A stretch of DNA of 64,000 nt. Source: Terriglobales bacterium (GTDB lineage Bacteria > Acidobacteriota > Terriglobia > Terriglobales > Acidobacteriaceae). The stretch spans positions 558,001 through 622,000 of the forward strand of contig JAICSO010000001.1 in NCBI GenBank assembly GCA_025936825.1. Direction: 5' to 3'. Positions 119 to 16,264 of this stretch are shown in pieces. Numbering within the stretch: the first letter of the stretch is position 1; every line of letters begins with the position of its first letter. The position numbers were made by a program, and so were the translations under genes. The notes below the pieces were generated by a model that saw only the letters and a list, made by a program, of their open reading frames with translations, was not told the DNA's origin and ran no database searches.

Positions 119-907
119 ATGAGTAAAGCGCTCTTATACGATGCAACGCTCTGCATCGGATGCAAGGCATGCGAACAGGCATGTGCTGACCACAACAAGC
201 TTCCCTACACAACCGCAATTGGAGCTGAGGAGAAGCAGTCGGACCACAAGTACACGGTGGTGCTCACCAAAGGCGAGCACTTCATGCGGCGCCTATGCAT
301 GAACTGCCTCGATCCCGCGTGTGCCTCGGTGTGTCCGGTGGGCGCATTGCGCAAGACCTCAGCCGGGCCGGTCATCTATGAGGAAGGCAGGTGCATGGGA
401 TGCCGCTACTGCATGGCGGCATGCCCGTTCGGAGTCCCCAAATACGAATGGGGCAAAGTCCTTCCGCGGGTTCGAAAGTGCACGATGTGTCCGGACCGGG
501 TTGCAGCCGGTCAACCAACTGCGTGTGCGGAAGCTTGCCCGACGGGGGCCACCAAGTTTGGCGAGCGGGATGAATTGATTGCTGAGGCACGCCAGCGCAT
601 CCACGACAATCCCGAAAAATATCTCGACCATATTTATGGTCTGACTGAGGTTGGCGGCACCTCTGTGCTCCTGCTGTCCGGTGTGGCTTTCGAACAATTC
701 GGATATCGCGCAGAACTGCCCGGCGATCCGCTGCCGATGCTCACCTACCGCGTGCTGTCGCGCATTCCCGACATTATTCCTCTTGGTGGCGTGCTTCTCG
801 GCGGAGTGTGGTGGATTACGCACCGACGCAAAGAGGTTGCTGCGGCCGAAGGTCCCAGGAACAACGCGCAAAACGGCACTTCGAAACGGAGGCGCGATGA
901 AGAGTAA
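119..907 (+). CDS. Four-cluster 4Fe-4S ferredoxin subunit (HybA/DmsB/NrfC-like) with C-terminal membrane anchor
   Basis: A 262-residue electron-transfer subunit. Four cysteine groups are visible: CIGCKACEQAC near residue 12, CMNCLDPACASVCP near 60, CMGCRYCMAACP near 92, and CTMCP...CAEACP near 120-140. This is the 16-Cys pattern of HybA/DmsB/NrfC proteins carrying four cubane clusters. A single hydrophobic helix (about 215-235) is followed by a basic tail, which by the positive-inside rule would put the cluster domain outside the cytoplasm, as in HybA. No N-terminal Tat or Sec signal is visible, which is odd for that topology. The start is preceded by AAAGGA. It overlaps the NrfD-like gene by 11 bases, so the two should form one quinone-linked module. 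No catalytic molybdopterin or hydrogenase subunit lies in the window; one could lie upstream. Confidence 0.88.
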   Translation: MSKALLYDATLCIGCKACEQACADHNKLPYTTAIGAEEKQSDHKYTVVLTKGEHFMRRLCMNCLDPACASVCPVGALRKTSAGPVIYEEGRCMGCRYCMAACPFGVPKYEWGKVLPRVRKCTMCPDRVAAGQPTACAEACPTGATKFGERDELIAEARQRIHDNPEKYLDHIYGLTEVGGTSVLLLSGVAFEQFGYRAELPGDPLPMLTYRVLSRIPDIIPLGGVLLGGVWWITHRRKEVAAAEGPRNNAQNGTSKRRRDEE

Positions 908-2069: not shown

Positions 2070-2787
2070 CCCAACTCGAAGCAGACTGCCGCGCTGGAAG
2101 CGGTTCACGTACAGCGTGAGCGCAAAACTGATCGCGTCATTGCTGATGGCGATGGTCGCAATCTTTGCGCTCTTGGGATATCTCAACATCCAGTTACATA
2201 GGAAGCACCTGGAGACGGCAACGCTCTCGGCGGCGGAGCGGGTGAGCGACTTGATCAAGCGCAGCACGAATTACGAGATGCTGCACAACAATCGCGAGGG
2301 CTTGTATCACGTGATGAAAACCATCGCGGAGGAACCGGGCGTGGCCAAAGTGCGCATCTTCGACCGTGAGGGACGGATCACGTATTCCACCGATGTGGCC
2401 GAAGTGAATCATGTGGTCGATAAGAGCGAGGAAGCTTGTTTCCACTGTCACGCGCAGTCGCAACCGCTGGCGCATTTGAACCGGCCCGACCGGTTCCGCA
2501 TTTATCGCAACACCGCCGGCGAGCGAGTTCTCGGTGTGATCAATCCGATCGAGAACCAGGCATCGTGTTCCAACGCGGATTGCCACGCGCATCCCGCGGA
2601 ACAGCGAATTCTGGGTGTCCTCGACACGGACATGTCGCTGGCGAAAGCCGATATGCAACTAGCGGAGAGCACTCGGCGGATGATTATTTACACCGTATTC
2701 GCGCTCGTGATGATCGCGGCGTTCAGCTGGATTTTTGTGTGGCGAGTTGTCGGGCGCCCGATCAAAACGCTCGAGGCCGGAACCTAA
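2056..2787 (+). CDS. Sensor half of a haem-c histidine kinase (interrupted by in-frame TAA)
   Basis: The N-terminal 243 residues of a membrane histidine kinase. One helix lies at about 20-40, followed by a periplasmic sensing domain with a c-type haem motif C-F-H-C-H (C128, C131, H132) and a second CX4CH (C171, C176, H177). A second helix (about 211-235) leads into the start of a HAMP domain. The frame ends at TAA 2785-2787, inside HAMP (after IKTLEAGT). Translation of the same frame beyond the stop continues HAMP (RLSQGDLGFQIDVHSRDEVG) and then the kinase, so one G-to-T change of GAA would create the stop. It could be a true nonsense mutation, a split protein or a sequence error. The haem motif suggests redox or NO/O2 sensing for the nearby cytochrome operon. 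Confidence 0.8.
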   Translation: MPETDPTRSRLPRWKRFTYSVSAKLIASLLMAMVAIFALLGYLNIQLHRKHLETATLSAAERVSDLIKRSTNYEMLHNNREGLYHVMKTIAEEPGVAKVRIFDREGRITYSTDVAEVNHVVDKSEEACFHCHAQSQPLAHLNRPDRFRIYRNTAGERVLGVINPIENQASCSNADCHAHPAEQRILGVLDTDMSLAKADMQLAESTRRMIIYTVFALVMIAAFSWIFVWRVVGRPIKTLEAGT

Positions 2788-2841
2788 CGGCTGTCGCAAG
2801 GCGATCTGGGATTCCAGATTGATGTCCATTCACGGGATGAA

Positions 2842-3726
2842 GTGGGCGACCTGGCACATTCCTTCAACACCATGAGCTTGCAGTTACGGGATGCCAATGA
2901 GCAGATTGTTGCCTGGGCCAAGACGCTGGAAGACCGCGTCGCAGAGAAAACGGCAGAGCTACAGCGAGCACATAGCCATGCTCTGCGTTTCGAAAAGATG
3001 GCGTCCATCGGCAAGATGGCCGCGGTGGTGGCGCATGAAATCAACAATCCCCTCTCCGGTATTTTGACTTACGCCAAGCTGCTGCGGAAATGGGTGGAGC
3101 GCGGAGAAGCGGCAACCGAAAAACGCGCAGAAACGGCGCAATGCCTTGAGTTGATTGCTGCGGAAAGCCGGCGCTGCGGGGATCTAGTCAAAAACCTGCT
3201 CACCTTCTCGCGAACGTCTGCAGTCAACATCCAGCCAAGCGATCTGAATGCGGTAATCGAACGAGCGTTGCGACTGGTTCAGCATCAATTGGAGCTCGCG
3301 AACATCCAACTTCAACTTGAGTTCGAGGCGAACCTCCCGCTGGTATTGTGCGACGCGCCGCAAATTGAGCAAGTCATGCTGGCGCTGATTCAGAATGCGA
3401 TTGACGCGATGCCAAAAGGCGGCAACCTCTGGCTGGTGACGCGCATGAGTGCTGTGAACAGGGAAATCGAGATCGAGGTGCGCGACGACGGTATGGGTAT
3501 ACCGCAGGACATCTTGCCACAGATTTTCGAACCGTTCTTAACGACAAAAGAAAGCGGCCATGGCGTTGGCCTGGGACTCGCCATCAGCCGCAGCATTATC
3601 GAGCAGCACAACGGGAAAATTGAAGTCCAGTCTGAAGCGGGGAAGGGAACCCGGTTCAGTCTAGTGCTTCCAGTCGCACCGGTCGTCAATGGTGCTCGAC
3701 GGCGCGAAGTTCTTGTCGAGAGGTGA
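2842..3726 (+). CDS. Kinase half of the interrupted haem-c histidine kinase
   Basis: In the same frame as the sensor half. From the ATG at 2842 the product has 294 residues: the end of HAMP, a coiled linker, a HisKA domain (KMAAVVAHEINNPLSG, phospho-acceptor His) and a HATPase domain with N box (QNAIDAMPKGG), G1 (DDGMGIP), F box (FEPFLTTK) and G2 (GHGVGLGLAIS). All catalytic motifs are intact and codon use is undisturbed, so any lesion is recent. Without the sensor half it would be a soluble kinase unless the TAA is read through. The stop TGA shares its last base with the regulator's ATG, so kinase and regulator are a coupled pair. Confidence 0.8.
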   Translation: MGDLAHSFNTMSLQLRDANEQIVAWAKTLEDRVAEKTAELQRAHSHALRFEKMASIGKMAAVVAHEINNPLSGILTYAKLLRKWVERGEAATEKRAETAQCLELIAAESRRCGDLVKNLLTFSRTSAVNIQPSDLNAVIERALRLVQHQLELANIQLQLEFEANLPLVLCDAPQIEQVMLALIQNAIDAMPKGGNLWLVTRMSAVNREIEIEVRDDGMGIPQDILPQIFEPFLTTKESGHGVGLGLAISRSIIEQHNGKIEVQSEAGKGTRFSLVLPVAPVVNGARRREVLVER

Positions 3727-5090
3727 TGAAATTGAGCAAAAAAGGCAGTCTGCTGATCGTGGATGACGAACTTACGGTGCGTGATTCGCTGGGGAAGTGG
3801 TTTCACGAAGAAGGCTACGAGGTTGCGACCGCGGAGAGTGCGAGTGAAGCGCTCACGCGCATGGCGGAGTCACGATGGGACCTGGCGCTAGTCGACATCA
3901 AGATGCATGGCACCGACGGGATTGAGTTGCAGCGCCGCTTGCGCGAGATCGATTCCGAGTTGCTGGTAATCATCATGACCGGATACGCGTCGGTGGAAAC
4001 CGCGGTGGCGGCGCTGAAGAATGGGGCGTACGACTACGTCACTAAGCCGCTGGATCCCGACGAGATCGCGCACCTGGTGAACAATGCTCTGTCCCACAAA
4101 CACACTCAGCAAGAGAACGAGCGGCTGAAGGAGACGATGGCAGAAGCGGCGCGACCGGGAGAGTTGGTAGGGAACAGTTCCGCAATGCGCAAGGTGTTTG
4201 AGGCGATTGAGACCGTCGCTCCTACGGACGCAACCGTGCTGATCACCGGCGAGAGCGGAACGGGGAAAGAACTGGTGGCGCGTGCCATTCATGCCGCCAG
4301 CACCCGGCGGTTCCATCCACTGGTGGTGATTCACTGTGGCGCCCTTACGGAGACATTGCTTGAGAGCGAACTGTTCGGATACGAGAAAGGCGCGTTCACC
4401 GGCGCGCAATATCGCAAGAAGGGGAAATTTGAGATCGCTGAGGGTGGGACAGTTTTTCTCGACGAAATTGGCGACATCACGTTGAAGACTCAAACCGACT
4501 TGCTGCGGGTTTTGCAGGAACGCGAGATCAACCGTGTGGGTGGAAACCAGATTCTGAAAGTTGATTTTCGCTGCGTAGCTGCTACGAACAAAAATCTCGA
4601 GCAACTCATCGGCGAGGGAAAGTTTCGCTCCGACCTCTTTTACCGCCTAAATGTTTTTCACATGGAGTTGCCGCCGCTGCGAGAACGCCGCGAAGACATT
4701 CCGTTGCTGGTAAACCATTTCGTGCAGAAGTTTTCGTCGTCGATGAACAAGCGGATCACCCATGTGTCTCCGAGCGCGATGAACCAGTTGCAACAGCAAC
4801 CCTGGCCGGGGAACGTCCGAGAACTGGAGAATGCCGTGGAGCGAGCGATGGTGGTGGCGCAGGAGCCGATGCTGCGAGACCAGGACTTTGTGTTTCGCCA
4901 GACGATTGTTAACGGCAGCAATGGGGGAAAGACACTAGAGGAGGTGGAGCGCGCTTACATCCTGAGAGTGCTGGACGAATGCGGCCAAAATCAGAGCCGG
5001 GCGGCGGATAAACTAGGGATTGATCGCGTCACGCTGCATCACAAGCTGAAAAGATACGGTTGGACCCGCAGCCAAGTTGAGACGCGATGA
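3726..5090 (+). CDS. NtrC-family sigma-54-dependent response regulator
   Basis: A 454-residue activator with three domains. The receiver spans about 1-120, with phospho-acceptor D57 in [10 protein letters not shown]. The AAA+ sigma-54 interaction domain has Walker A GESGTGKE, the sigma-54 contact loop GAFTGA and Walker [11 protein letters not shown]. The C-terminal Fis-type helix-turn-helix contains [24 protein letters not shown] lies three bases earlier, but ATG 3726 overlaps the kinase stop by one base. It should be phosphorylated by the haem-containing kinase and drive sigma-54 promoters, presumably of the cytochrome genes downstream. I found no convincing -24/-12 element there by eye. Confidence 0.93.
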
Positions 5091-5620
5091 AGCCGTTGCG
5101 GCTGCTCCCCGTCGGTCATGTTGAGGGCGAACTCCTGGCTTTTCTGCGGTCGGCTTTGCGGCAGTCGCTGCACATCCCATGTGACATTCTTCCGGTGGTG
5201 CAGGACCCTTCCGCGACGTTTCACGCTGAGCGTAGGCAGTATCACTCATCCCAAATTCTGGCGGGGATGCAAAAATTCGTGAACGGCGATTCGTGGCGAG
5301 TTCTCGGCGTTACAGATGTCGACCTGTACATCCCGATTCTGACTTTCGTGTTCGGAGAGGCGCAAACGGACGGTGAGTGCGCTGTGGTTTCGGCTCGGCG
5401 CCGTCGCCAGGAGTTCTATGGTCTGGCGCCGGACGCGGGGATTCTAGAGCAGCGGTTGCTGAAGGAAGCCATCCACGAGATCGGGCACACCTGTGATCTT
5501 ACCCATTGCGACAACTATCTGTGTGCGATGGCTGCTTCCCATGCAGTGGAGTGGATTGATATTAAGGATGCCGCGCTTTGCCGGGAGTGCCGGGAAAAGC
5601 TGGAGTCTTCTCTCCAATGA
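5087..5620 (+). CDS. amzA: Archaemetzincin-like zinc metalloprotease (peptidase M54)
   Basis: A 177-residue protein with the archaemetzincin signature: zinc ligands HEIGH (130-134) and H140, then Cys at 141, 146, 165 and 168, and M148 after the second Cys. These match the extended HExxHxxxxxH plus four-Cys structural zinc site of M54. The position usually occupied by Gly between the second and third His is Asp137 here, which may affect activity. The ATG overlaps the regulator stop (ATGA), placing it last in the ferredoxin-NrfD-kinase-regulator unit. Its physiological substrate is not known for bacteria. Confidence 0.85.
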   Translation: MKPLRLLPVGHVEGELLAFLRSALRQSLHIPCDILPVVQDPSATFHAERRQYHSSQILAGMQKFVNGDSWRVLGVTDVDLYIPILTFVFGEAQTDGECAVVSARRRRQEFYGLAPDAGILEQRLLKEAIHEIGHTCDLTHCDNYLCAMAASHAVEWIDIKDAALCRECREKLESSLQ

Positions 5621-5627
5621 AAATGAT

Positions 5628-5677
5628 GGGGAGTGTGCAGCGGGGGGATGGTTGCCTGGCGATTGCTACACACTCCC
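5628..5677. terminator. Candidate bidirectional hairpin between convergent genes
   Basis: An inverted repeat GGGAGTGTG (5629-5637) / CACACTCCC (5669-5677), extended inward by GC/GC after a mismatch, lies between the convergent amzA and cytochrome c genes. There is no T-run, so termination is inferred from position and stem strength. Confidence 0.4.
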
Positions 5678-5743
5678 AAGCGCGCGAAATCCGTAGAACC
5701 TGTCGGATACGCGGCGTAAACAGATGCTTGTTCTAGACGCGGC

Positions 5744-6085
5744 CTACTTCTTGCCTAACTCACGGACATACGACACTAGCTGGGTGATCTGAGGTGCGGT
5801 CAACTTGTTCTCATACGCGGGCATTTTGGCTTTGCCTTTTGTCGTAATTGTGGTCAGTTCCGCGTCGCTTTCTTTCTGAACTTCTGGCGAGCTGAAGCTG
5901 CGGGCTCCGGTGGACTTTGCGGCCGGAGTGTCAGCTTTGCCGTCAGCGCCGTGACACATCACACACTTCGCTTTGTAAAGGCTGGCCGCGTCCTGGGCCT
6001 TGCCGTCAATGGCACAGAAAAAGATTGTCACTAAGATTGCAAATATGAAGACTGCCGGGTTGAAAAATGCGTTAGTTCTCGACAT
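5744..6085 (-). CDS. Small class I c-type cytochrome, exported
   Basis: A 113-residue monohaem cytochrome c. It has an N-terminal signal (MSRTNAFFNPAVFIFAILV... ending near GKAQD), one haem motif in KCVMCHGADGKA, and a likely distal Met ligand in KAKMPAYENKL near the C-terminus. The ATG at 6085 is preceded by GGAGGAAGG, which is why it is preferred to the upstream in-frame TTG. It lies divergent from the 16-haem operon and convergent with amzA. It is a plausible soluble periplasmic shuttle between the NrfD-type quinol oxidase and the multihaem proteins. Confidence 0.88.
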   Translation of the reverse strand: MSRTNAFFNPAVFIFAILVTIFFCAIDGKAQDAASLYKAKCVMCHGADGKADTPAAKSTGARSFSSPEVQKESDAELTTITTKGKAKMPAYENKLTAPQITQLVSYVRELGKK

Positions 6086-6100
6086 CCTGCCTTCCTCCAA

Positions 6101-6125
6101 GTAGGAAACGGTGTGTTTCCGCTAC
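6101..6125 (-). promoter_or_regulatory. Operator-like inverted repeat in the cytochrome c leader
   Basis: GTAGGAAAC (6101-6109), a 5-base spacer, then GTTTCCGCTAC (6115-6125). The arms pair except for a two-base insertion. It lies just upstream of the cytochrome c ribosome-binding site, so it could be an operator or an mRNA hairpin. Confidence 0.35.
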
Positions 6126-6202
6126 AGCAAAACACCACACACTCGCACGTTAACTGTCGGGCACAAGGGCAGTCTGCGTCTGTGTCGAGACTCATGGCCG
6201 AG

Positions 6203-6218
6203 TGTGATGGGTGTCACA
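6203..6218. promoter_or_regulatory. CRP/FNR-superfamily binding site (TGTGA-N6-TCACA)
   Basis: The 16-base sequence TGTGATGGGTGTCACA is a perfect TGTGA-N6-TCACA palindrome, the classic CRP half-site arrangement. It lies in the divergent region, about 118 bases upstream of the cytochrome c start and about 380 upstream of the 16-haem start. The protein that binds it is not in the window. Confidence 0.6.
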
Positions 6219-6595
6219 AGAAGAAAACGGGCAGGCAACCGAGGCGGATGCAGGTGAGTGCTCACCATAGGCGCCTTGGACCAAGCACGGGGATTGGCGC
6301 TCGAAAACCGGTAAGTTCGCGCCTTCGTTGTCGTCTTTCCGAACACACCTAAACTACTGAATTTATTAAAGTTCAGCGAAATTGGTGATTCTACTCACAA
6401 GTACGGGTGATGACAGTCCTACGTTGTTGATTCTGAAGAAACTATTCTCCGTTTCGTACTGCGGTTTCCTCATTCGGGGCTGAGTGGAGAGTGGTTGCGG
6501 TGCTGAAGGACGTTTCAAACTCGGTTTCGCGAGTTCCGTCACACGGCGACATTCCAATTGGAGTGGTCAAGCAGGCTGTTGCAAATCGCCGCTGC

Positions 6596-8032
6596 ATGCG
6601 GAATTTCGCAACAATACTGTTTGCATTTCTGAAACTTGCGCTATGCGTCGCGGGTTGGGTTGCAGTTCCCGCGTTCGCCAAAGTCCACCCGGTACCTCTC
6701 GAGAAGAACGTAGACTCCGCCACCTGCCTGCAATGCCATGAAGAGAAGTCGAAGGGCAAGTCTGTGCATTCAGCAATCCAGATGGGATGCCTGAGCTGCC
6801 ACGAAGTTCGGGTGAACAAAGACGTGACCCGGGTCAAGCTGATCACGGCCGTTCCCTACAAGCTGTGCTTCAACTGCCATGCGGAGAAGGACGCGGCGCA
6901 CATCAAGGGGCATGTGCACGAGCCTGCGGTACGCGACTGCCTGAGCTGCCACGATCCTCACACCTCGAACAACAAGAACCAATTGCTGAAGGCGACTTCG
7001 GGGGAGAAGAAAGAGAATCTTTGCCTCGGCTGCCACACGCAGGGGACCAACGTCCCAGCAAAGGGCAGCCGGCACGCGGCGCTCGATATGGGCTGCGACA
7101 CCTGCCACACGACGCACAAGACCGGCGCCGACCTCTCGACTGAAAACAAGTTTCACCTGACGAAAGGCACGCCGGCGCTGTGCTTAGATTGCCACGACGC
7201 AAAAGATGCCGGCCTGCAGAAGGCACATCACAACCAACCCTTTGCGTCAGCTGATTGCCTTCAGTGCCACGACCCGCATCAGTCAGCCGCTCCGAAGTTG
7301 ATGGCGAAGTTCCAGCACGCGGCTTTCGAAGGTGGCAATTGCGAAACCTGCCATGCACCGGCGCAGGATGGGAAAGTAGTTCTCGTACGAAAAGATGCGA
7401 AGTCGCTCTGCATCACCTGTCATGACGATCAGGCCAAGCACATTGAGTCGGCGAAAGTTCAGCATCCTGGCGCTTTGGGCGACTGTACCGACTGCCACAA
7501 CCCGCATGCCAGTTCGCAGCCGGGCTTGCCCAAGACGGACTCGGTCAACATGTGCCTCGGGTGCCATAGCGAAGTCGCGGACATGGGGAAGAAGGCTCAC
7601 CTGCACCAGCCGGTGTTCAACCAGTCTTGCGCGATCTGCCATGATCCGCACGGGAACGACAACCTGCACCTCCTGAGAGCGTCGAACCCGAACCCACTTT
7701 GCCTGGAGTGCCACGGGCCGGATGCAAAGCCGCAGAAGGTCGAAGGCGAACACCTGGTGGCGATCTTTAACGGCAAAGTGAAATTGCCGGAAGATTACTT
7801 CGCCAAAGTGCCGGTCCTGCCGATCAAGTACGGACTTGGACATCCCGTGGAACACCACCCCGTGGTGGACCAGATGGATCCCGCGAATCCCGACAAGGTA
7901 GCGGTCTCCTTGAACTGCGCCACCTGCCACCAGCCCCACGCTTCGGCGAAACCGAACTTGCTGGTGAAAGACCAGGAGGCGAACACAGCATTTTGCTCTT
8001 CTTGTCACAAAAACCTGGGGGTACAGCGATGA
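6596..8032 (+). CDS. Sixteen-haem c-type cytochrome (paired-CXXCH family)
   Basis: A 478-residue exported cytochrome. After a signal peptide (MRNFATILFAFLKLALCVAG...PAFA) there are 16 CXXCH motifs, the first CLQCH and the last CSSCH. Several occur in the doubled form CxxCHDPH or CxxCHNPH with a following H, typical of the paired-CXXCH repeat. No lipobox or transmembrane helix is visible, so it is probably periplasmic or secreted. The frame is open to a GTG at 6491 and has another GTG at 6563; ATG 6596 is chosen because it gives a normal signal peptide, but it lacks a clear Shine-Dalgarno. It heads a seven-gene unit and its stop overlaps the next ATG. Role inferred: a wire between inner-membrane donors and the outer-membrane complex. 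Confidence 0.92.
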   Translation: MRNFATILFAFLKLALCVAGWVAVPAFAKVHPVPLEKNVDSATCLQCHEEKSKGKSVHSAIQMGCLSCHEVRVNKDVTRVKLITAVPYKLCFNCHAEKDAAHIKGHVHEPAVRDCLSCHDPHTSNNKNQLLKATSGEKKENLCLGCHTQGTNVPAKGSRHAALDMGCDTCHTTHKTGADLSTENKFHLTKGTPALCLDCHDAKDAGLQKAHHNQPFASADCLQCHDPHQSAAPKLMAKFQHAAFEGGNCETCHAPAQDGKVVLVRKDAKSLCITCHDDQAKHIESAKVQHPGALGDCTDCHNPHASSQPGLPKTDSVNMCLGCHSEVADMGKKAHLHQPVFNQSCAICHDPHGNDNLHLLRASNPNPLCLECHGPDAKPQKVEGEHLVAIFNGKVKLPEDYFAKVPVLPIKYGLGHPVEHHPVVDQMDPANPDKVAVSLNCATCHQPHASAKPNLLVKDQEANTAFCSSCHKNLGVQR

Positions 8033-9276
8033 TGCGACAAGAAACGATTCGGGTTGAGTTAAGGCTGACACGACATCGCGCCGTGAGCTTGGCATTGACG
8101 CTTGCTGTTCTCTTAGAGGGCGCAGTCCTGGTCCAAGCGAAAGACAAGAAGAAGGCGGCTCCGCCCTCGCAGAAAAACTTTCTCGAACTACTGGACTACT
8201 CGAAAATCGTGTGGCCAAATCCGCCTGCGATAACGCGGATCAAGTACCTGAGCTATTTTTCCGGCGAAAAGCGGCAACTGAAAGCGGCGCCGAAGAAGAG
8301 CGCCTGGATGGACAAGTTGGCGGGGGTCGCTGTCGGCGAGGCTTCGCCTTCGGACAAACTGTTTTACCAACTGGTCAGGCCGTACGGCATTGGGGAAGAC
8401 AGCAAGGGGCGCATTTATGTAGCCGATGAGAAGGTGCTCGCGGTTTTCATTTTTACTCCCGAGACCGGGGAGGTCGAGCTCATCAAGAACGGGCAGCACG
8501 CGCGGTTCAGGCTGATCACCGGCCTGGCGATCGATGATGCCGACAATCTCTTCGTCTCCGACAGCGAATTGCGGCACGTCCTGGTATTCGACAAACAACA
8601 TCGGGCACAAGCAAGCATCAGCCAGGGAATGTCGAGCCCGGCCGGATTGGCGGTCGATAACGAGAACCGCTTCCTGTATGTCTGCGACACCGACCTGGAC
8701 CAGGTACTCGTGTACGACGCCGACCCGCCGTACAACCTGCTGCGCACGATCGGCAAGCGTGACGGAAAGCATGAACTGACGACGCCGGGCGATTTCTCGC
8801 GTCCGACGAACGCGGCCGTGGATGAAGACGGAAATGTATACGTGTCGGACACGTTTAACGACCGGGTCGAAATCTTTGACGCCGACGGCAACTTTATTCG
8901 TGAATTTGGGAAGGCGGGCGATGGGCCGGGTTATTTCACCAGGCCAAAAGGGATTGCAGTAGACCGCGACGGGCACATTTGGGTAGCCGACGCCATGCAG
9001 GACCGGGTACAGGTGTTCTCCCCTGAGGGGAAGTTGCTCATCTGGATCGGCAATCACGGGTTGCTGCCGGGCCAGTTCAGCATGGTCGGGGGAGTACTCA
9101 TCGATAAGCAGAACCGCGTGATCACCTCGGAACAGTATCCGGGCCGAGTGCAAATCTTCCGCTACTTCACGGATGAAGAAGCGAAGGCGGAATTGGCACG
9201 GCGCGAGGGATCCGGCAACCGGGGATTGCTGTCCGCGAAACAAGCGGATGGCACGTCGTCGACGACGCCGAAGTAA
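8029..9276 (+). CDS. Exported NHL-repeat beta-propeller protein (first of two)
   Basis: A 415-residue protein with an N-terminal signal (about 1-37) and a six-bladed propeller of NHL repeats, for example RPYGIGEDSKGRIYVAD, RPTNAAVDEDGNVYVSD and RPKGIAVDRDGHIWVAD. ATG 8029 overlaps the cytochrome stop and follows a GGGGGT stretch. NHL propellers are binding scaffolds, not redox proteins. In multihaem outer-membrane clusters they recur beside porin and cytochrome genes, which suggests a structural role in the complex (inference). It is clearly related to the propeller at 13371-14450. Confidence 0.9.
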   Translation: MMRQETIRVELRLTRHRAVSLALTLAVLLEGAVLVQAKDKKKAAPPSQKNFLELLDYSKIVWPNPPAITRIKYLSYFSGEKRQLKAAPKKSAWMDKLAGVAVGEASPSDKLFYQLVRPYGIGEDSKGRIYVADEKVLAVFIFTPETGEVELIKNGQHARFRLITGLAIDDADNLFVSDSELRHVLVFDKQHRAQASISQGMSSPAGLAVDNENRFLYVCDTDLDQVLVYDADPPYNLLRTIGKRDGKHELTTPGDFSRPTNAAVDEDGNVYVSDTFNDRVEIFDADGNFIREFGKAGDGPGYFTRPKGIAVDRDGHIWVADAMQDRVQVFSPEGKLLIWIGNHGLLPGQFSMVGGVLIDKQNRVITSEQYPGRVQIFRYFTDEEAKAELARREGSGNRGLLSAKQADGTSSTTPK

Positions 9277-9288
9277 GTGGCGCTAAGT

Positions 9289-9311
9289 TTAGCCGTCCCG
9301 CGGGCGGCTAA
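9289..9311 (+). other. Strong intercistronic hairpin
   Basis: A 23-base sequence beginning TTAGCCG and ending CGGCTAA folds into a 10-pair stem (one G-T pair) with a 3-base loop, 12 bases after the NHL stop. No T-tract follows, so it may stabilise or segment the operon mRNA instead of terminating it. Confidence 0.45.
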
Positions 9312-9347
9312 TGATGTGGTTCGGTGGTTGTTCGAAGCGGTAACGAG

Positions 9348-9361
9348 GTAACAGCTGTTAC
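9348..9361 (+). promoter_or_regulatory. Perfect 14-base palindrome upstream of the 4-haem cytochrome
   Basis: GTAACAGCTGTTAC is fully palindromic and is preceded by another GGTAAC half (9340-9345). It sits directly before the AGGAGG ribosome-binding site (9366-9371). It could be an operator or enhancer for a dimeric regulator, perhaps the NtrC-type protein, or a small RNA hairpin. Confidence 0.4.
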
Positions 9362-9385
9362 ATCCAGGAGGTTTTTATAAATACT

Positions 9386-10408
9386 ATGAAAAAAGCGACC
9401 TATGTGATCGCTACGGTTTTGTGCTTCGCCGCATTCGCGATGGCGCAGACCTACACGTCGGGAAGCGGCATCACCGGTGTGGATAAGCTGGGCGCTCACC
9501 AGAATGGTGGACGCGGCTGCACCGGCTGCCATGCTCCCCACAGCGGCGCCTTCGGAGCTGGCGGAAACGCCATCACCGGGCAGACCGTTGACAAGACCAA
9601 CGCAGGAAATTATGCATTGTGGGGCGAGGACCTCGGTCCTCTTTATGGCTATGTCCTGAACCAGGGCGACAACATCACTGCCACTGGTCACAACTCCTTC
9701 CAAACAACTCTTCCGGCGTCGTCGCAGTTCGCGAGCATGCCAGAGGAGATCACGGGCATCATGACGTGCCTAAGCTGCCATGACGGCAACATCGCCAAGG
9801 GCGCCATGATGACCAACAAGTCATACGAGCAGGCCGCGGGTTTGTTGCCTCCGGGAGTTTACGGACCAAACGCGATTCCGACATTGCTCGGAAACGACGG
9901 CACGACCGCTGGCAACTACTACAACGACCACCCGGTGGGACCGCAAGCAACGCTGGGAGCGGTCGGAGTTGCCACGAACTTCACTTATACAGTCGGCGGC
10001 TGCACCTGGCATGGCGTGGCAAGCGATTGCCTGAAGATTGCCGGCACCGCGACCAATTACCAGGCGTTCGCGAATCACTATGGCGCGCCCAATATCATTT
10101 CCAACGGGCACGGCTCACCGGTTGCGTTGCCTGACAACAATCCCGCGAATGCGTACCTGTTGTGCACCACGTGCCACACGCCGCATTCGATGTACACCGC
10201 CAGCGCCAACTCCGACGCCCCGATCGCGGGACAGGCCAAAGGCACGTACCCGACGTACTTCTTTCTAGCGGCCCCGTACAACCCGGGTTCCAACCCGAGT
10301 GCGACGCAAGCCTCTTCCGCGACGCAGTTCTGCCGCCAGTGCCACTTCTCAGGCGCGGGTGGTGCGAACGAAGCCAGCGGAGTTATGAGTGTGACGACTG
10401 CTTTCTAA
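9386..10408 (+). CDS. Four-haem exported cytochrome c (paired-CXXCH type)
   Basis: A 340-residue protein with signal peptide MKKATYVIATVLCFAAFAMAQ and four haem motifs: CTGCH (C45/C48/H49), CLSCH, CTTCH and CRQCH. Haem density is low, with long Gly/Asn/Thr-rich segments between motifs, resembling surface-associated cytochromes. The layout GCxxCHxPHSG - ALWG - CLSCHDGxxAxG is shared with the N-terminus of the 11/12-haem protein at 14447, so the two are paralogous there. AGGAGG precedes the start. It sits between two hairpins inside the operon, which may set its own expression level. Confidence 0.9.
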   Translation: MKKATYVIATVLCFAAFAMAQTYTSGSGITGVDKLGAHQNGGRGCTGCHAPHSGAFGAGGNAITGQTVDKTNAGNYALWGEDLGPLYGYVLNQGDNITATGHNSFQTTLPASSQFASMPEEITGIMTCLSCHDGNIAKGAMMTNKSYEQAAGLLPPGVYGPNAIPTLLGNDGTTAGNYYNDHPVGPQATLGAVGVATNFTYTVGGCTWHGVASDCLKIAGTATNYQAFANHYGAPNIISNGHGSPVALPDNNPANAYLLCTTCHTPHSMYTASANSDAPIAGQAKGTYPTYFFLAAPYNPGSNPSATQASSATQFCRQCHFSGAGGANEASGVMSVTTAF

Positions 10409-10418
10409 CTCTCAGGCC

Positions 10419-10438
10419 GGGGGAGTACATACTCCCCC
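10419..10438 (+). terminator. Hairpin after the 4-haem cytochrome (terminator or attenuator)
   Basis: GGGGGAGTA (10419-10427) and TACTCCCCC (10430-10438) form a perfect 9-base inverted repeat followed by TGGTTCTT, a weak U-rich tail. Because the next gene starts 37 bases on in the same direction, partial termination or mRNA-end protection is more likely than a full stop. Confidence 0.5.
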
Positions 10439-10475
10439 TGGTTCTTCAGTCTGAGCGCAACAACGTGGGGTGAAC

Positions 10476-11510
10476 ATGAAAACCTGGCTCGCAATCGGAA
10501 TCGTTGCCGCGGCGGGTGTGGCGAGTGGGCAATCCGCGGCGCCCCAGCCTCCCGGGCTACAGGCGGCAAAGCAGAGTCAGCATCTGGCGATTGCACCGAT
10601 CACGCCGAAAGTCCCAACCAGCTGGAAACCGGTGGCGCGAGTCAACGGCGCGGTTCTCGTGGAACGCGATCTGGTGCGCGAAATGTACACGATCTTTCCG
10701 TACGCGCGACAACACAATGGGTTTCCGAAGGAGCTGGAGGCGGAAATCCGCCGCGGTGCGCTGCAGATGATCATTTTTGATGAGCTGGTCTACCAGGAAG
10801 CCAAACGGCAGAACCTGACGATTGCACCTGCGCGGCTCGCGCAGGCGGAAGCGGAATTTCGCAAGCAGTTCCGCAGTGATGCAGCGTACCGGCAGTTCCT
10901 GATGACGGAAGTGAATGGTTCGCACGCGGCGATGCGTGAAAAGATTCGACGCGCTCTGTTGATCGAGAAATTCTTGAAGCAGAAGGTCGAAGATCCAGCG
11001 TGGGTGACGATCGCACAAGCGCGAGCACAGTACGAAAAGACTGCGACGCAGTATAAGCATGAGGAACTGCTGCACATCCAGAGCATCTCGATTATTCCGC
11101 CGAATCAGACCTCCGCGGTTTTGAAGGAAGCCAAGCAGCGCGCGGAGCAGGCTGCCAAGCAGGCGCAGGAAGCGAAGACGTATCGCGACTTCGGGCTTCT
11201 TGCAGAGAAGGTTTCGGATGATGACTTCCACGTGAACATGGGCGATCACAAGCCGATGGAAGCCAGCAAGCTGCCGCCCCCGATCGTGCAACTCGCGGAC
11301 AAGATGAAGCCAGGGGATGTGAGCGGACTCATTCAACTGGGCAACAACTACACCATCTTTCGACTTGAGGCGCGGGTCCCAGCGGGTACGACTCCGTTCG
11401 CCGAAGTTAAGGTGAAGCTCCAGTCGGAGATGCAGAAACAAAGGACAGAACAACTGCGATCAGCCCTGGCGCAACAGCTGCGTAAGAACGCGAAGATTGA
11501 AACTTTGTAG
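10476..11510 (+). CDS. SurA-like periplasmic peptidyl-prolyl isomerase (parvulin type)
   Basis: A 344-residue exported chaperone-isomerase with a signal (MKTWLAIGIVAAAGVASGQS). A SurA N-terminal helical region begins ARVNGAVLVERDLVREMY and contains FDELVYQEAKRQ. A divergent PpiC/rotamase segment follows (about 190-320: HIQSISIIPP, LAEKVSDDDF, MKPGDVSGLIQLGNNYTIFR). ATG 10476 is preferred over the in-frame GTG at 10470 because of the GTGGGGTG upstream. Placed immediately before the beta-barrel gene, it probably helps fold that barrel or the cytochromes. Confidence 0.87.
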   Translation: MKTWLAIGIVAAAGVASGQSAAPQPPGLQAAKQSQHLAIAPITPKVPTSWKPVARVNGAVLVERDLVREMYTIFPYARQHNGFPKELEAEIRRGALQMIIFDELVYQEAKRQNLTIAPARLAQAEAEFRKQFRSDAAYRQFLMTEVNGSHAAMREKIRRALLIEKFLKQKVEDPAWVTIAQARAQYEKTATQYKHEELLHIQSISIIPPNQTSAVLKEAKQRAEQAAKQAQEAKTYRDFGLLAEKVSDDDFHVNMGDHKPMEASKLPPPIVQLADKMKPGDVSGLIQLGNNYTIFRLEARVPAGTTPFAEVKVKLQSEMQKQRTEQLRSALAQQLRKNAKIETL

Positions 11511-11523
11511 CGAGGAATAGGTA

Positions 11524-13365
11524 ATGTGCGCGCAGAGACAAACGAGGAGGCAGATCTTAGAAGCTGGGTTCATTGCCTTGTCGATGCTTGTTGTAACCGC
11601 GCAGGCGCAGGTCGCGGTTGGCGACGAAGTGAAGATGTCCCTGAACGGCAACATCGGAATTGGCTACTCAGGCGATTTTGGAAACGCAGGAACTTCCGGT
11701 CACGGACTCTTTGGGACGGGGATGGGGTTGCTGTCCGGTTCTTACTACAATCCCAATTTCTTGTCATTCAATGTGCGCCCTTTCTATAACCGTAACCAGG
11801 ACAATGGCGCTTACACGTCAGTTCTGAGCGAGACTGGTGTGGACGCATCGACGTCGATTTTTAGCGGGAGCCATTTTCCGGGATCGATCAGTTATACAAA
11901 GTCTTTCGCAAAGGGCAGCCAATACGGTTTGCCGGGAACGGCCAACCTGAGCGCTGACAGCAATACCCAGAATTTTTCGGCGACCTGGAGCGAGTTGTTG
12001 CCGAACCTGCCTTCACTGACGGCAACGTTCGCGGACAATTCGAGTTCATCGACGATTCTGGGCGAATCTGGCACCAGTGACACATCGTCGAAAATCTTCA
12101 ACGTATTGTCCAACTACAAGGTTCATGGCTATCAACTCACGGGATTCGTGAATCACCAGAACTACAACGTGGAATTGCCGGCATTCCTCGCGCCGACTAA
12201 TACGCAGTCGGACTCCGCGACGACTTCCTACGGAATCTCAGCGAACCACTCTTTGCCGCTCTCCGGCACCATTACGATGGATTACAACCGTACCGAGTAC
12301 GACAGCCGTACCGGCGCATTCCAGGCAAATGGTACGACCGACACCGCCGACACAACAGTCGCGGTGAAACCGATTGAACGTCTCAGCGTAAGCGGCCAGG
12401 TTCGATACACGGGGAACCTGATCGGGGCGCTGCGGCAGACCTACTTGGCCGGGCAGACGGCAGGTCTGTTCTCCGAGGAAGAGCAGTCGCACGGAATTAT
12501 GCTGGGCACTTATGCGGCCTATCAGATCGGACACGGTTTCGGGTTGGTGGGATATGCAAACCGGCAGATCCAGAATTTTGCCGGCACCACTTACGATTTT
12601 AATCAAGCGGGCGGAACGTTGACCTACAGCTACGCGCGGCCCCTGTTTGGTTTGCTTTATCTCAGCTTTGGAATGGTCAACAACGGAACCACCACTGGCG
12701 GGAACAGCCTAGGATTTGTCGGCAATGCCGACCTGAAACGCCGTATCCGCAGATGGGAGTACAACGCGGACTTTTCGTACTCGCAGAATGTGCAGGCAAT
12801 TATCGCCAATTACACGACCAGCGGGTTCAATTACGGCGGCAACGTTCGCAGGCGGTTGGGCTCCAACATTTCATGGACCGTCTCCTATCGTGGCGCACAG
12901 ACCGCGGTGACCCAAATACCAGGTTCGGGGAACCGGGCGGACTCTTTTGTGACAAATTTTGTGGATGGTCGCTACGACTTCTCCGCCACATATTCCAAGT
13001 CGCATGGGACCGCGTTACTCAGTTCCACGGGCACTCTCACCCCCACGCCGGTGGCGACTCTACTGACGCCTGAGCAGATTGTGTATGCCGGAAAAGTGTA
13101 CGGCGTCGGAGCGTCGGTTACGCCGCTCAAGAGAATGTTGATTAATGTCAACTGGTACAAAGTGCGGTCCGACACGCAAACATCCGCTCTTTTTTCACAG
13201 AACAACAGCGAACGCTACTACGGGCAGATGCAGTACAACCTCCGCAAACTGTCGTTTCGCGCAGGTTATTGGAGGGTGTATCAGGCCGTAGGAGCGAACT
13301 TCGGCAAGCCAACGTTAGACAACACATATTTCTTCAATGTTTCGCGATGGTTCAACGTATTCTAA
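11524..13365 (+). CDS. Large outer-membrane beta-barrel protein (candidate porin of a cytochrome conduit)
   Basis: A 613-residue protein with a signal (ending near VVTAQAQ). Nearly the whole chain is made of alternating polar/hydrophobic strands rich in Tyr, Ser, Asn, Thr and Gly, ending in an aromatic residue (SRWFNVF), which is typical of BamA-inserted barrels. The size would allow roughly 22-28 strands, similar to MtrB/PioB or Geobacter porin-like proteins, but I recognise no family motif and no N-terminal CXXC. It is flanked by cytochromes, NHL propellers and a SurA-like protein. Inferred role: the sheath that carries a multihaem cytochrome through the outer membrane. Confidence 0.82.
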   Translation: MCAQRQTRRQILEAGFIALSMLVVTAQAQVAVGDEVKMSLNGNIGIGYSGDFGNAGTSGHGLFGTGMGLLSGSYYNPNFLSFNVRPFYNRNQDNGAYTSVLSETGVDASTSIFSGSHFPGSISYTKSFAKGSQYGLPGTANLSADSNTQNFSATWSELLPNLPSLTATFADNSSSSTILGESGTSDTSSKIFNVLSNYKVHGYQLTGFVNHQNYNVELPAFLAPTNTQSDSATTSYGISANHSLPLSGTITMDYNRTEYDSRTGAFQANGTTDTADTTVAVKPIERLSVSGQVRYTGNLIGALRQTYLAGQTAGLFSEEEQSHGIMLGTYAAYQIGHGFGLVGYANRQIQNFAGTTYDFNQAGGTLTYSYARPLFGLLYLSFGMVNNGTTTGGNSLGFVGNADLKRRIRRWEYNADFSYSQNVQAIIANYTTSGFNYGGNVRRRLGSNISWTVSYRGAQTAVTQIPGSGNRADSFVTNFVDGRYDFSATYSKSHGTALLSSTGTLTPTPVATLLTPEQIVYAGKVYGVGASVTPLKRMLINVNWYKVRSDTQTSALFSQNNSERYYGQMQYNLRKLSFRAGYWRVYQAVGANFGKPTLDNTYFFNVSRWFNVF

Positions 13366-13370
13366 GCCGC

Positions 13371-14450
13371 ATGCACACTATGAGGCTGCGCAAAGCGGCG
13401 TGGGTGCTTTCTTGTGCCGTTGTGCTGGCGGGCAATGGTTTCGCTGCGAGCAAGAAAGAACAGCGGGCTGTTGCGGCACCGCCCGATTTGCTGCTTGAAG
13501 GCGGGCGCAAGTTGACGTTTGACCGAGCGCTGGCTTCTGAGCGCGACATCCGCGGCAAACCTGGATTCTTCAAAAAGATTGTTGACGTTGTTGCCGGTGA
13601 GGCCGAGTACAAAGCAATGGTGCGGCCGTACGGCGTCGCAGTTGATTCGCACGGACGGATCATCGTCACCGACCCCGGCATCGGCGGAATCCACATCTTC
13701 GATCCCGAGCAGCACAAGTACAAGCTGATCGGCCGGAGAGAGAAGTCTAAAGACGCGATGTTGCAGCCGCAATGCATCGCTCTCGACGCCGGCGACAACA
13801 TTTACGTGACAGATTCCAAGGCGGGAAAGATTTTTATCTTTGAGCCGAGCGGGAAATACAAGGGCGTATTTGGGAGCCTGAAACGCGGCGAGGGATTCTT
13901 CAAACGGCCGACGGGAATTGCGATTGACCCTGAAACGCAACGCGTGTACGTGACTGATACGTTGCGTGATCGCGTGTACATCCTCGACAGTCATGGGCAG
14001 GTACTGAAGTGGTTTGGCCAGCACGGCGAAGCGAACGGCGAATTCAATCTACCGACCGAGTTGCTGATCAAGAACGGCATCGTTGCGGTCGTCGACGCCA
14101 TGAACTTTCGCATTCAGTTGTTCGATCGCAATGGCGCGTTTCAGAGCGCAATCGGGAACATTGGGGACGCGGAGGATGCGCTATTTCGGCCGAAGGGAAT
14201 CAGTCTGGACTCGGAGAGCCACATTTATCTGGTCGAGGGACTCTCGGGGACGGTTCAGGTGTTCGATCGCGAAGGGGAGTTGCTTTATTTCTTCGGCCAG
14301 CGCGGAACAGCTCTCGGCCAATTTCAGCTTCCGGCGGGCGTTTTCATCGATCGTAACGACCGAGTGTATGTCGTCGATTCCTACAACCGGAGAGTGCAGG
14401 TCTTTCAATATCACGGCCTGAAAACGGGTGGGCAAGGAGCCATGCCATGA
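13371..14450 (+). CDS. Exported NHL-repeat beta-propeller protein (second of two)
   Basis: A 359-residue protein with a signal (MHTMRLRKAAWVLSCAVVLA) and about six NHL blades (VRPYGVAVDSHGRIIVTD, RPTGIAIDPETQRVYVTD, LPAGVFIDRNDRVYVVDSY). It aligns with the propeller at 8029 across the pre-propeller segment as well (GEAEYKAMVRPYG versus GEASPSDKLFYQLVRPYG), so the two are duplicates. ATG 13371 lies 5 bases after the barrel stop. The ATG nine bases later and the overlapping ATG 13347 are alternatives, and none has a strong ribosome-binding site. Its stop overlaps the next cytochrome. Confidence 0.9.
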   Translation: MHTMRLRKAAWVLSCAVVLAGNGFAASKKEQRAVAAPPDLLLEGGRKLTFDRALASERDIRGKPGFFKKIVDVVAGEAEYKAMVRPYGVAVDSHGRIIVTDPGIGGIHIFDPEQHKYKLIGRREKSKDAMLQPQCIALDAGDNIYVTDSKAGKIFIFEPSGKYKGVFGSLKRGEGFFKRPTGIAIDPETQRVYVTDTLRDRVYILDSHGQVLKWFGQHGEANGEFNLPTELLIKNGIVAVVDAMNFRIQLFDRNGAFQSAIGNIGDAEDALFRPKGISLDSESHIYLVEGLSGTVQVFDREGELLYFFGQRGTALGQFQLPAGVFIDRNDRVYVVDSYNRRVQVFQYHGLKTGGQGAMP

Positions 14451-16264
14451 GGCTGTGGCTCACAACCGTCGTTTTACTGATGACTTCTCTCGCATTGGGC
14501 CAGTCCAGCGACATTCTTGGGGCGCACGACCTCTCGATGAGCGGAGGTTCTCGCGTGAAGGGCCGGATGTCGGCGGCGTGTCTGTATTGCCATGTGCCGC
14601 ACTCCGGAAGCGGCAGGACTGCTCTATGGGGGCAGACGCTCTCATCGCAGACATACACGACGTACACGAGCACGACGGTCCAGAACACGACGGTCCAACC
14701 TCCGCTGGGTGAGTCGAGTTCGCTGTGCCTCAGTTGCCATGATGGAACAGTTGCGATTGGACAAGTCACGCCGTACGGTCCTTATTTAATGTCAGGGTCG
14801 ACGACGACGATGGGTACGCAGCTGCAGAATACGCATCCTTTCAGCCTGCAGCTTCCGATGAAGGACGCGCCAACACTGGTCGCGAGCTTAGTCGCCACGC
14901 AGACCACAGCCGATCCGACACACTCGGTCAAATTAATAGGCGGCAATGTCGAGTGCACGAGTTGCCACAATCCGCATATCCAGAGCATCGACAAGCAGTC
15001 GCCTAATTTCCTAGTGCGAGACGATCTGAAGGGCGCGGTGTGCCTGGCGTGCCATGAGACCAGCCCTCGCACGGTAAACACTCACCAGAATCAACTGGCG
15101 GGTTGGACGGCCGGCATTCACGCGAACGCACCGAATCTGGTTCAACCGACAGCAGGCTTCGGCGGATACAACACGGTGGCGGAGTTCGCTTGCCTGTCGT
15201 GCCACATGCCGCACGATGGCACTGGCGCTGCTCGACTATTGCGCGCCAACAATGAAACTGATTGCGTGAATTGCCACAGCGGCGGCACAAATTTATCGCC
15301 GGCGGCTCCGAATGTTTTCGCGGAGTTCTCGAAGGCGGGCGCACATCCATTCTCGTCACCTTCCGGAACGCATGATGCAAACGAGAGCGCGCTGCTGAAC
15401 CAGAACCGCCATGCGACCTGCGCCGATTGCCACAATTCGCATACTGCGAACCAGGTCAGCACATTCCCCACGCCACCGGCAATTCGAGCTTCACAGAGTG
15501 GCATCGCGGGCATCAGCGCCGCAGATGGCGTCACTGTGCTGACTCCGGCGGTGAATCAGTTCGAGAATTGCTTACGGTGTCATGGCAATAGCGCCGGCAA
15601 GACTACGAATCCCGCGGTGTTCGGGTATTTGCCCGTGAGAGTCGCCGCTTCTACGGATCCTCTGAATGTAATCTCTGAATTTGCTTTGACCGCCACATCA
15701 AGCCATCCGGTGATGCACGACCGCACGAGTCCATTTGCACAGCCGAGTCTGCGGGCGTTCATGCTGAATGTGGATGGAGTGACCCAGGGGCGGCCGATGG
15801 GAGTACGGATTCTGTGCAGCGATTGCCACAACAGTGATGACAATCGCGAGTTCGGCGGGACAGGTGCGAACGGACCGCACGGGTCGAAGTACTACCACAT
15901 CCTGGAGCGTCGATATGAGTTCAGCCAGGCTCCGGCGCCAGGGCAGGCGATCAGCAATCTGTTTCCCAATCCAGACTTGAGCATCGCAGGGCCATATGCG
16001 TTGTGCGGAAAGTGCCACGATTTAACGCAGATCCTCAGCAACAGCAGCAGCTTCAGCGGACACTTGAACCATGTGCAGCAGGATGGGTTCTCCTGCTCAA
16101 CGTGCCACACCGCGCATGGGATGGGAGCGCAAGCGGCAACCATCACCGGCGAGCGTTTGGTGAATTTCGACGCGAATGTTGTCGCGCCCAACGGCGCAAC
16201 TCCTGTTTCTTATAACCGCAGTACGAACACCTGCACGCTCGTTTGTCACGGGCATGCGCATTGA
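14447..16264 (+). CDS. Eleven/twelve-haem exported cytochrome c
   Basis: A 605-residue protein with signal MRLWLTTVVLLMTSLALGQ. Eleven CXXCH motifs are visible: CLYCH, CLSCH, CTSCH, CLACH, CLSCH, CVNCH, CADCH, CLRCH, CSDCH, CGKCH and CSTCH. A last motif, CTLVCH, is CX3CH, four residues from the C-terminus (GHAH). Long Thr/Ser/Asn-rich stretches separate the haems, as in outer-surface cytochromes. The start overlaps the NHL stop (ATGA). As the last and largest cytochrome of the unit it is the best candidate for the extracellular terminal electron donor; no lipobox is seen, so anchoring would be through the barrel or propellers. Confidence 0.92.
   Translation: MRLWLTTVVLLMTSLALGQSSDILGAHDLSMSGGSRVKGRMSAACLYCHVPHSGSGRTALWGQTLSSQTYTTYTSTTVQNTTVQPPLGESSSLCLSCHDGTVAIGQVTPYGPYLMSGSTTTMGTQLQNTHPFSLQLPMKDAPTLVASLVATQTTADPTHSVKLIGGNVECTSCHNPHIQSIDKQSPNFLVRDDLKGAVCLACHETSPRTVNTHQNQLAGWTAGIHANAPNLVQPTAGFGGYNTVAEFACLSCHMPHDGTGAARLLRANNETDCVNCHSGGTNLSPAAPNVFAEFSKAGAHPFSSPSGTHDANESALLNQNRHATCADCHNSHTANQVSTFPTPPAIRASQSGIAGISAADGVTVLTPAVNQFENCLRCHGNSAGKTTNPAVFGYLPVRVAASTDPLNVISEFALTATSSHPVMHDRTSPFAQPSLRAFMLNVDGVTQGRPMGVRILCSDCHNSDDNREFGGTGANGPHGSKYYHILERRYEFSQAPAPGQAISNLFPNPDLSIAGPYALCGKCHDLTQILSNSSSFSGHLNHVQQDGFSCSTCHTAHGMGAQAATITGERLVNFDANVVAPNGATPVSYNRSTNTCTLVCHGHAH

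Follow-up and report, generated by a model that had tools for sequence, protein, structure and literature searches.

We analysed a 64,000-nucleotide stretch of DNA from a bacterium of the order Terriglobales, family Acidobacteriaceae (contig JAICSO010000001.1, positions 558,001 to 622,000; referred to here as the window), in which seven closely spaced plus-strand genes at 6596-16264 probably build an electrical connection through the outer membrane that ends in a wire of haem protein. In order, these genes encode a 16-haem cytochrome, an NHL beta-propeller (NHL1), a 4-haem cytochrome, a SurA/PpiC-type peptidyl-prolyl isomerase (PPIase), a predicted outer-membrane barrel, a second propeller (NHL2) and a 12-haem cytochrome. 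At slightly better than even chances, we consider the operon to be a trans-outer-membrane electron conduit ending in a cytochrome filament, the two being joined by the 12-haem protein. The complex, the polymerisation, the adaptor role and the excess expression of one subunit that belong to this reading are what we infer from sequence.

The proposed mechanism would begin with the 16-haem, MtrA-like chain, which would conduct electrons across the periplasm and into a wide barrel of 28 strands. At the outer mouth of that barrel would sit the 12-haem protein, its OmcE-like N-terminal domain acting as a built-in first unit of the filament, and the separate 4-haem protein would polymerise on this domain. 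The PPIase would fold the exported proteins, the two propellers may be periplasmic or outer-membrane scaffolds, and a hairpin after the 4-haem gene would let the cell make the subunit in excess. Export of the block's proteins is a prediction from their N-terminal sequences.

The window contains 37 CXXCH-type matches in its DNA, counted on both strands, compared with 4.7 +/- 2.2 in shuffled sequences (0 of 100 shuffles reached 37), and outside the block such matches are isolated. Two further single matches lie at 51993-52007 on the minus strand and at 63484-63498 on the plus strand. The seven-gene order proposed in a sequence-only reading of this DNA was confirmed by inspection of genes and haem motifs and by Pfam, which places doubled-CXXCH domains in the cytochromes. 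Stop and start codons overlap at two junctions, 16-haem/NHL1 and NHL2/12-haem (by 4 bases at the latter). The name NHL for the second propeller is itself a reading of its sequence; its homologues, found by BLAST and with a profile of this propeller, also adjoin 12-haem genes in other phyla.

Barrel homologues were detected in 17 of 100 relatives, a figure that counts the genome of the window itself. Amongst 18 loci read from other genomes, all seven genes were colinear in 13. The barrel gene stood beside cytochromes in all 18, and barrel homologues consistently apart from cytochromes, which would have spoken against the sequence-only reading, were thus not the pattern found. In three of the loci the 16-haem and NHL1 genes lie downstream, with an extra inverted 4-haem gene in between; one locus is without NHL2, and one, cut by the start of its contig, retains the last five genes. 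An additional 4-haem gene, inverted and adjacent to the 12-haem gene, was seen in L028, L029, L034, L048, L049, L050 and L054 (L050 and L052 repeat L028 and L032, and such repeats leave 36 of 38, 43 of 46 and 48 of 50 rows distinct in the conservation counts). The last of these loci, L054, belongs to the named strain Occallatibacter savannae AB23, where the 4-haem, PPIase, barrel, NHL2 and 12-haem genes stand together with the extra inverted 4-haem gene, and a 16-haem homologue (67% identity) is found some 735 kb from these genes on the contig that carries them; NHL1 was looked for at the first locus only.

A search at E 1e-60 recovered the 12-haem gene from 87 of 300 genomes in the family and from 0 of 7 other members of the window's genus. 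The haem counts are close to fixed. In a second set of loci, all 20 sixteen-haem homologues above 600 bits carried exactly 16 haem motifs and all 27 four-haem homologues above 280 bits exactly 4. Of 31 twelve-haem homologues scoring more than 600 bits, 30 had 11 CXXCH, the sole exception being L065, where the match ends at the contig end; these figures exclude homologues below the bit thresholds, such as that of L039, whose 16-haem gene consists of two open reading frames (ORFs) with 5 and 9 motifs. Counterparts of the 16-haem protein in more distant Acidobacteria (L066, L068, L069, L073, L074 and L077) have 7 to 16 haems, and the length of this chain seems, by motif count, to vary there. In the viral contigs searched, no relative was found.

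Evidence for a filament was provided by kinship with OmcE, the cytochrome that forms an extracellular filament in Geobacter sulfurreducens (PDB 7TFS; PMC12954529). A profile of the 12-haem family (A1, comprising 15 of 19 sequences, with four whose ORFs run far upstream left out) matched OmcE at E 4.7e-24 over columns 1-211 and, within the same first 211 columns, PDB entry 9yuq at E 3e-19. The window's 4-haem family (A2) matched 9yuq at E 2.7e-8 in a PDB profile search. In profile comparisons, A2 was linked to the 12-haem N-terminus (A1) at 99.6% and, over 138 columns of the N-terminal half, to a canonical 4-haem profile (A4) at 99.5%; A4, built from the 28 of 42 distant loci described below in which a 4-haem ORF was found, matched OmcE over nearly its full length at E 5.8e-47. 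Judged by these profiles, the OmcE family includes the 4-haem protein, placed there through the chains A2-A4-OmcE and A2-A1-OmcE, and an N-terminal segment of roughly 200 residues in the 12-haem protein. This homology, which the sequence-only reading had missed, points to a filament, and the common ancestry of the 4-haem subunit and the 12-haem N-terminus suggests a nanowire anchor. The entry 9yuq, which matches both families, is described as a 'putative multiheme cytochrome c' and has 16 chains.

Putative haem ligands are conserved in both families. In the 4-haem family, at least 90% of 46 rows, of which 43 are distinct, retain 8 His, as eight ligands for four haems would require. In the 12-haem protein, for which the sequence-only reading had allowed 11 or 12 haems, the 11 CXXCH are joined by a CX3CH motif that keeps its Cys and His in every one of 15 aligned sequences, and the number is therefore probably 12.

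Directly after the stop codon of the 4-haem gene lies a G+C-rich stem-loop, a feature that is new here. With repeated loci removed, a perfect stem of at least 8 pairs was found after 34 of 36 main-operon 4-haem genes versus 60 of 256 of the other six genes, and a T-run accompanied a strong stem in 32 of 36 versus 3 of 256 (16-haem 0/38, NHL1 2/37, PPIase 1/44, barrel 0/46, NHL2 0/46, 12-haem 0/45), a comparison weakened as a control in that the 80 bases after the other genes often lie inside the next gene. The strong form followed 1 of 8 4-haem copies that were not then followed by the PPIase gene. In canonical distant clusters, the 120 bases after the gene contained a strong terminator-like hairpin for 9 of 28 four-haem genes; the corresponding figures were 1 of 76 for the remaining cluster genes and 4 of 560 for shuffled sequence. 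When the 4-haem 3' ends of the operon copies were tested for folding, the median z was -2.1 and 24 of 44 lay below -2. From 23 distinct inner arm pairs, exchanging arms gave perfect pairing in 110 of 529 combinations (a total that counts the 23 native pairs), the stems having been picked for pairing; the MAFFT alignment misregisters the arms, so this is not formal covariation. Scans with other tools gave no signal: Rfam had no match at the gathering threshold across 5500-16700, and both a general terminator scan and the sigma70 promoters in the scan were at or below the level of shuffled sequence. A sigma54 promoter before the block was considered and rejected, as the site at 6026-6041 has one mismatch, yet the window holds 34 sites with at most two mismatches compared with 37.9 in shuffles.

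A hairpin tied to one gene of an operon is consistent with partial termination or protection of the 3' end, either of which would raise the amount of 4-haem product, and its near-exclusive position after the 4-haem gene may thus reflect excess expression, as for a filament subunit. These observations also bear on a plain porin-cytochrome complex lacking a filament, in which the 16-haem protein would lie inside, the barrel in the membrane and the 12-haem protein outside as an analogue of MtrC, with the 4-haem protein as a carrier loose at the surface or in the periplasm. Such a complex would account for the MtrA-like and MtrB-like parts, and homology to OmcE does not prove polymerisation; we nevertheless consider it unlikely, given that the 4-haem subunit and the 12-haem N-terminus share the OmcE family and that the hairpin singles out the 4-haem gene.

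The identity of the 613-residue protein as a barrel comes from an AlphaFold model, as no Pfam or NCBIfam match at E 0.01 exists. Modelled from an alignment of 35 sequences (A3; 27 close and 7 intermediate barrels together with the window's own), the protein formed 28 long strands in succession, with a predicted local distance difference test score (pLDDT) of 80 and a predicted template modelling score (pTM) of 0.68; folding from the single sequence (pLDDT 29) was uninformative. The best PDB match in Foldseek was MtrB in the Mtr complex (6r2q_B; E 2.9e-10, template modelling score 0.51, root-mean-square deviation (rmsd) 12.0). In VIA-align, MtrB (Z 16.2, rmsd 8.5, 427 residues) tied with the receptor PirA (Z 16.9, rmsd 7.5, 348 residues), the aligned length of MtrB being the largest amongst the 50 rows shown. 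We use 'MtrB-like' for this predicted structure in the sense of Foldseek rank and aligned length. By formula, a closed barrel of 28 strands with an assumed shear of 30 would have a backbone diameter of about 50 Å, and one of 26 strands with an assumed shear of 28, about 47 Å; MtrB has 26 strands. The predicted structure therefore agrees with a wide, MtrB-like barrel, and on the estimate of about 50 Å, with closure and shear assumed, it would not be too narrow to hold a haem chain, a point on which the sequence-only reading had been prepared to fall.

The 16-haem protein matched the MtrA chain of the same complex (6r2q_A) at E 3e-14 and scored 184 bits against TIGR03508 (DmsE family), just under the cut-off of 192.2. 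The protein resembles a dense multihaem chain of the MtrA kind: each haem takes up about 28 residues, and 33 His are retained by at least 95% of the 38 family rows (36 distinct). Against TIGR03507 (OmcA/MtrC family) it reached 41.8 bits versus a cut-off of 209.3, and no score was listed for the 12-haem protein. HmcA was rejected as an identity for the 16-haem protein (29.6 bits versus a cut-off of 400), despite HmcB/HmcC-like genes nearby. Membership of the barrel in the MtrB/PioB family (PF11854) was likewise rejected (no Pfam match at E 0.01), and with it plain MtrCAB membership of the operon. Of the porin-cytochrome conduit with all its parts that had been proposed from sequence, the barrel, the MtrA-like chain and the neighbouring cytochromes hold up; that description was incomplete in leaving out the candidate filament, and its barrel falls outside PF11854.

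The presence of the 16-haem gene in the operon is relevant to another arrangement, a nanowire secretion machine in which the barrel, propellers and PPIase would export and assemble the 4-haem protein and electrons would cross the membrane elsewhere, for example through an MtrAB-type cluster on contig C72 of the same genome. That contig carries the genome's sole MtrB_PioB (PF11854) match, beside a 10-haem gene, and the cluster (L126, G000:C72:9000-28000) comprises 10-haem, MtrB_PioB barrel, 1-haem, 11-haem and 6-haem genes. Export would also fit the encoded PPIase, the detached 16-haem gene of Occallatibacter and the proposal, in passages of PMC13194489, that Osc proteins beside OmcS serve folding and secretion. 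We judge a dedicated secretion machine to be improbable, as a 16-haem gene of fixed motif count is found in the same operon in the window and in the 13 colinear loci (14 with the locus lacking NHL2), which suggests electron transport through this barrel.

We also considered that the cluster might serve a soluble reaction, for instance in nitrite or sulfur chemistry. Multihaem proteins serve such enzymes too, a Cytochrome_C554 model passes for the 16-haem protein (see below), and the HmcB/HmcC-like families encoded nearby are used in sulfur and hydrogen respiration. No NCBIfam model of a catalytic multihaem protein reached its cut-off, however, and the barrel, propellers and cytochromes occur together in relatives, with barrel-sized genes and propellers beside 12-haem homologues in other phyla. 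A search that was not exhaustive found no evidence for such a role of homologous clusters, and we regard it as very improbable.

The distribution beyond Acidobacteria was explored with a 12-haem profile scan of named genomes, from which, with a capped pattern list, 80 of 559 confirmed stretches were kept, with phyla assigned from record titles. Beyond Acidobacteria, the kept loci belong to Desulfobacterota lineages (including Geobacteraceae), Verrucomicrobia, Planctomycetota, Gammaproteobacteria, Bacteroidetes, Nitrospirae and Nitrospinota; amongst the 80, the 12-haem/NHL pair occurs in about eight phyla and a fuller module in about six. Forty-two loci (L076-L118, L108 excepted) do not belong to the close acidobacterial type; in 38 of them the 12-haem gene directly follows an NHL gene, in 29 a haem-free ORF of at least 480 residues precedes the NHL gene, and in 28 an OmcE-like 4-haem gene lies upstream (26 of 29, by hand count, where at least 8 kb of upstream sequence was available). 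The large haem-free ORF was not seen in the Bacteroidetes and Nitrospinota loci of this set, hence the lower phylum count for the fuller module. In profile comparison, the large proteins of 35 loci, some of them acidobacterial, matched the window's barrel family at 99.4% over 546 columns. A hidden Markov model (HMM) of the acidobacterial barrels found 6 of the 35, all acidobacterial by title, which bridge both profiles, and the HMM of the distant proteins found 1 of 28 barrels in the reverse search.

In all 10 whole genomes examined, which were chosen from loci already holding the 12-haem gene, OmcE-like sequence was present in the N-terminal part of a long 12-haem-type ORF and again as a separate 4-haem ORF, both on one contig; the two lay within 7 kb of each other in nine genomes and about 13 kb apart in one. 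Of 76 Geobacteraceae genomes, 42 contained OmcE-like proteins; a long ORF matching the 12-haem gene in size accompanied some of these proteins, and others had no such partner.

Altogether, these observations lead us to a broader proposal, which we hold tentatively and at somewhat less than even chances: the 12-haem protein may be the missing anchor of OmcE-type nanowires, an OmcE-like unit fused to an 8-haem domain through which the filament would be plugged into a barrel conduit. The module and its propellers would then be a widespread nanowire base in about six to eight phyla, which Acidobacteria would feed from a 16-haem chain spanning the periplasm and in which the hairpin would set the excess of subunit. 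Passages of a 2025 review (PMC12307469) name nanowire secretion, anchoring and outer-membrane wiring as unresolved, and these questions become directly testable with a conserved cluster that combines a candidate filament subunit, a wide barrel and a fusion of a subunit relative to eight further haem sites. The related clusters suggest how haem-protein wires may be anchored to cells, and soil Acidobacteria gain a concrete candidate for extracellular electron transfer, whose parts are also found in the named Occallatibacter strain.

Several observations weigh against a conduit that ends in a filament. The window's 4-haem family matches OmcE (7tfs) directly at only E 0.033, and its C-terminal half is longer than that of OmcE and diverged from it. 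The window's own hairpin has a poor U-tract and is not amongst the 32 of 36 strong ones, and weaker stems also follow the 60 of 256 other operon genes. The MtrB match is one amongst many large barrels that score near it. For the 16-haem protein, the Pfam model Cytochrome_C554 passes (27.1 versus a cut-off of 20.8 bits), as does, for this protein only, the model of MtrC/MtrF domain II/IV (40.9 versus 30); the MtrA assignment is therefore not exclusive, and generic multihaem models may pass their cut-offs. A number of OmcE-like 4-haem genes in Geobacteraceae were listed with no 12-haem match on their contig, so such subunits do not always need this cluster, and the distant 16-haem gene of Occallatibacter shows that the parts need not be adjacent.

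Table 1. Features of the window; the starts at 6596, 8029 and 13371 are likely ones, chosen from sequence.
Feature	Position	Strand	Basis or remark
16-haem MtrA/DmsE-like cytochrome	6596..8032	+	16 CXXCH; ORF opens at 6491
NHL beta-propeller 1 (NHL1)	8029..9276	+	PF01436 E 5e-23; adjoins 16-haem gene in relatives
4-haem cytochrome, OmcE/UetA-like, candidate filament subunit	9386..10408	+	profile comparisons
Stem-loop directly 3' of 4-haem gene	10419..10438	+	8-bp stem, terminator-like, weak U-tract
SurA/PpiC-type PPIase	10470..11510	+	Rotamase_2 E 3e-15, SurA_N_3 E 1e-8
613-residue outer-membrane protein, predicted barrel of 28 long strands	11524..13365	+	AlphaFold, Foldseek
NHL beta-propeller 2 (NHL2)	13371..14450	+	homologues between barrel and 12-haem gene in relatives
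12-haem cytochrome, UetJ-like, proposed adaptor	14447..16264	+	11 CXXCH + CX3CH
1-haem class I cytochrome c	5744..6100	-	PF13442 E 1e-12; divergent from block
HmcB/HmcC-like neighbouring operon	119..5620	+	family models; last three genes named from sequence

Two neighbouring units in Table 1 lie outside the conserved block. The 1-haem gene, which the sequence-only reading had counted as part of the unit, is on the divergent strand, and a homologue adjoins the 16-haem gene in only 1 of 18 relatives' loci, which rules it out of the block. The operon upstream of it encodes an HmcB/HybA-like Fe-S protein, an HmcC/NrfD-like membrane protein, a haem-binding sensor kinase (split), a sigma54 regulator and an archaemetzincin-like gene product. 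Amongst the loci read, it adjoins the block at this window's locus only; in seven other loci (L120-L125 and L129, one of them cut short of the last gene) these genes stand as a separate unit with its own 1-haem gene, with no 16-haem block in the stretch read. A homologue of NrfD (E <1e-140) was counted by hand in 11 of 17 genomes with the barrel versus 9 of 83 without it (Fisher p 8e-6), and within the family in 11 of 17 versus 5 of 43 (p 8e-5), a correlation that is confounded by kinship and for which the cut-off of E 1e-140 was set after the list had been viewed. From gene content, it is plausible that this operon provides a quinone link, or electron entry. Its sensor-kinase gene is split in the linker by an in-frame TAA at 2785-2787, where the copies in L120, L122 and L123 read through; the kinase may be broken here, or the assembly may be wrong.

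The sequence-only reading recognised no described system with exactly this order, a view of the block as undescribed that is not borne out. By composition, nearly the same parts list is given for the Uet system (uetABCDEFGHIJ) of 'Ca. Tenderia electrophaga' in passages of PMC10734462, with UetJ as an 11-haem and UetA as a 4-haem cytochrome, UetDEG as trihaem cytochromes, UetB as a PPIase, UetC as a barrel and UetHI as NHL proteins; UetF is not described in those passages or in those of PMC12575090. The latter report the genes as conserved in Tenderiales for electron uptake; Uet also occurs in Gallionella according to passages of these papers, and its proposed function is extracellular electron transfer. 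Common to both systems are thus a 4-haem cytochrome, a PPIase, a barrel, two NHL proteins and an 11/12-haem cytochrome. They differ in the trihaem UetDEG, which were not found in the window and in whose place the block holds a 16-haem MtrA-like chain. This comparison was made by parts list, without Tenderia sequences, and the 80 loci kept from the capped scan include no Tenderia record.

Other known systems share fewer parts with the block. The 4-haem subunit is placed in the family of OmcE by profile, with the acidobacterial subunit being longer and having a diverged C-terminal half; in G. sulfurreducens, omcE is predicted to be its own transcription unit next to a predicted gsu0615-0616-0617 unit (a table in PMC1829397). 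With MtrCAB and MtoAB the block has in common a top fold match to MtrB and an MtrA-like chain, and it differs in a barrel outside PF11854, in 16 haems rather than 10 and in having no protein of the NCBIfam OmcA/MtrC family. The Osc and OetABI systems (passages of PMC13194489, PMC12977616 and PMC10553843) likewise combine a filament cytochrome with neighbouring folding and secretion proteins or a conduit, their filament protein being a different one, the 6-haem OmcS. Judged by its gene content, the block is real and conserved and is an acidobacterial counterpart of systems of the OmcE/Uet kind, with the 16-haem chain in place of the trihaem cytochromes as its variation.

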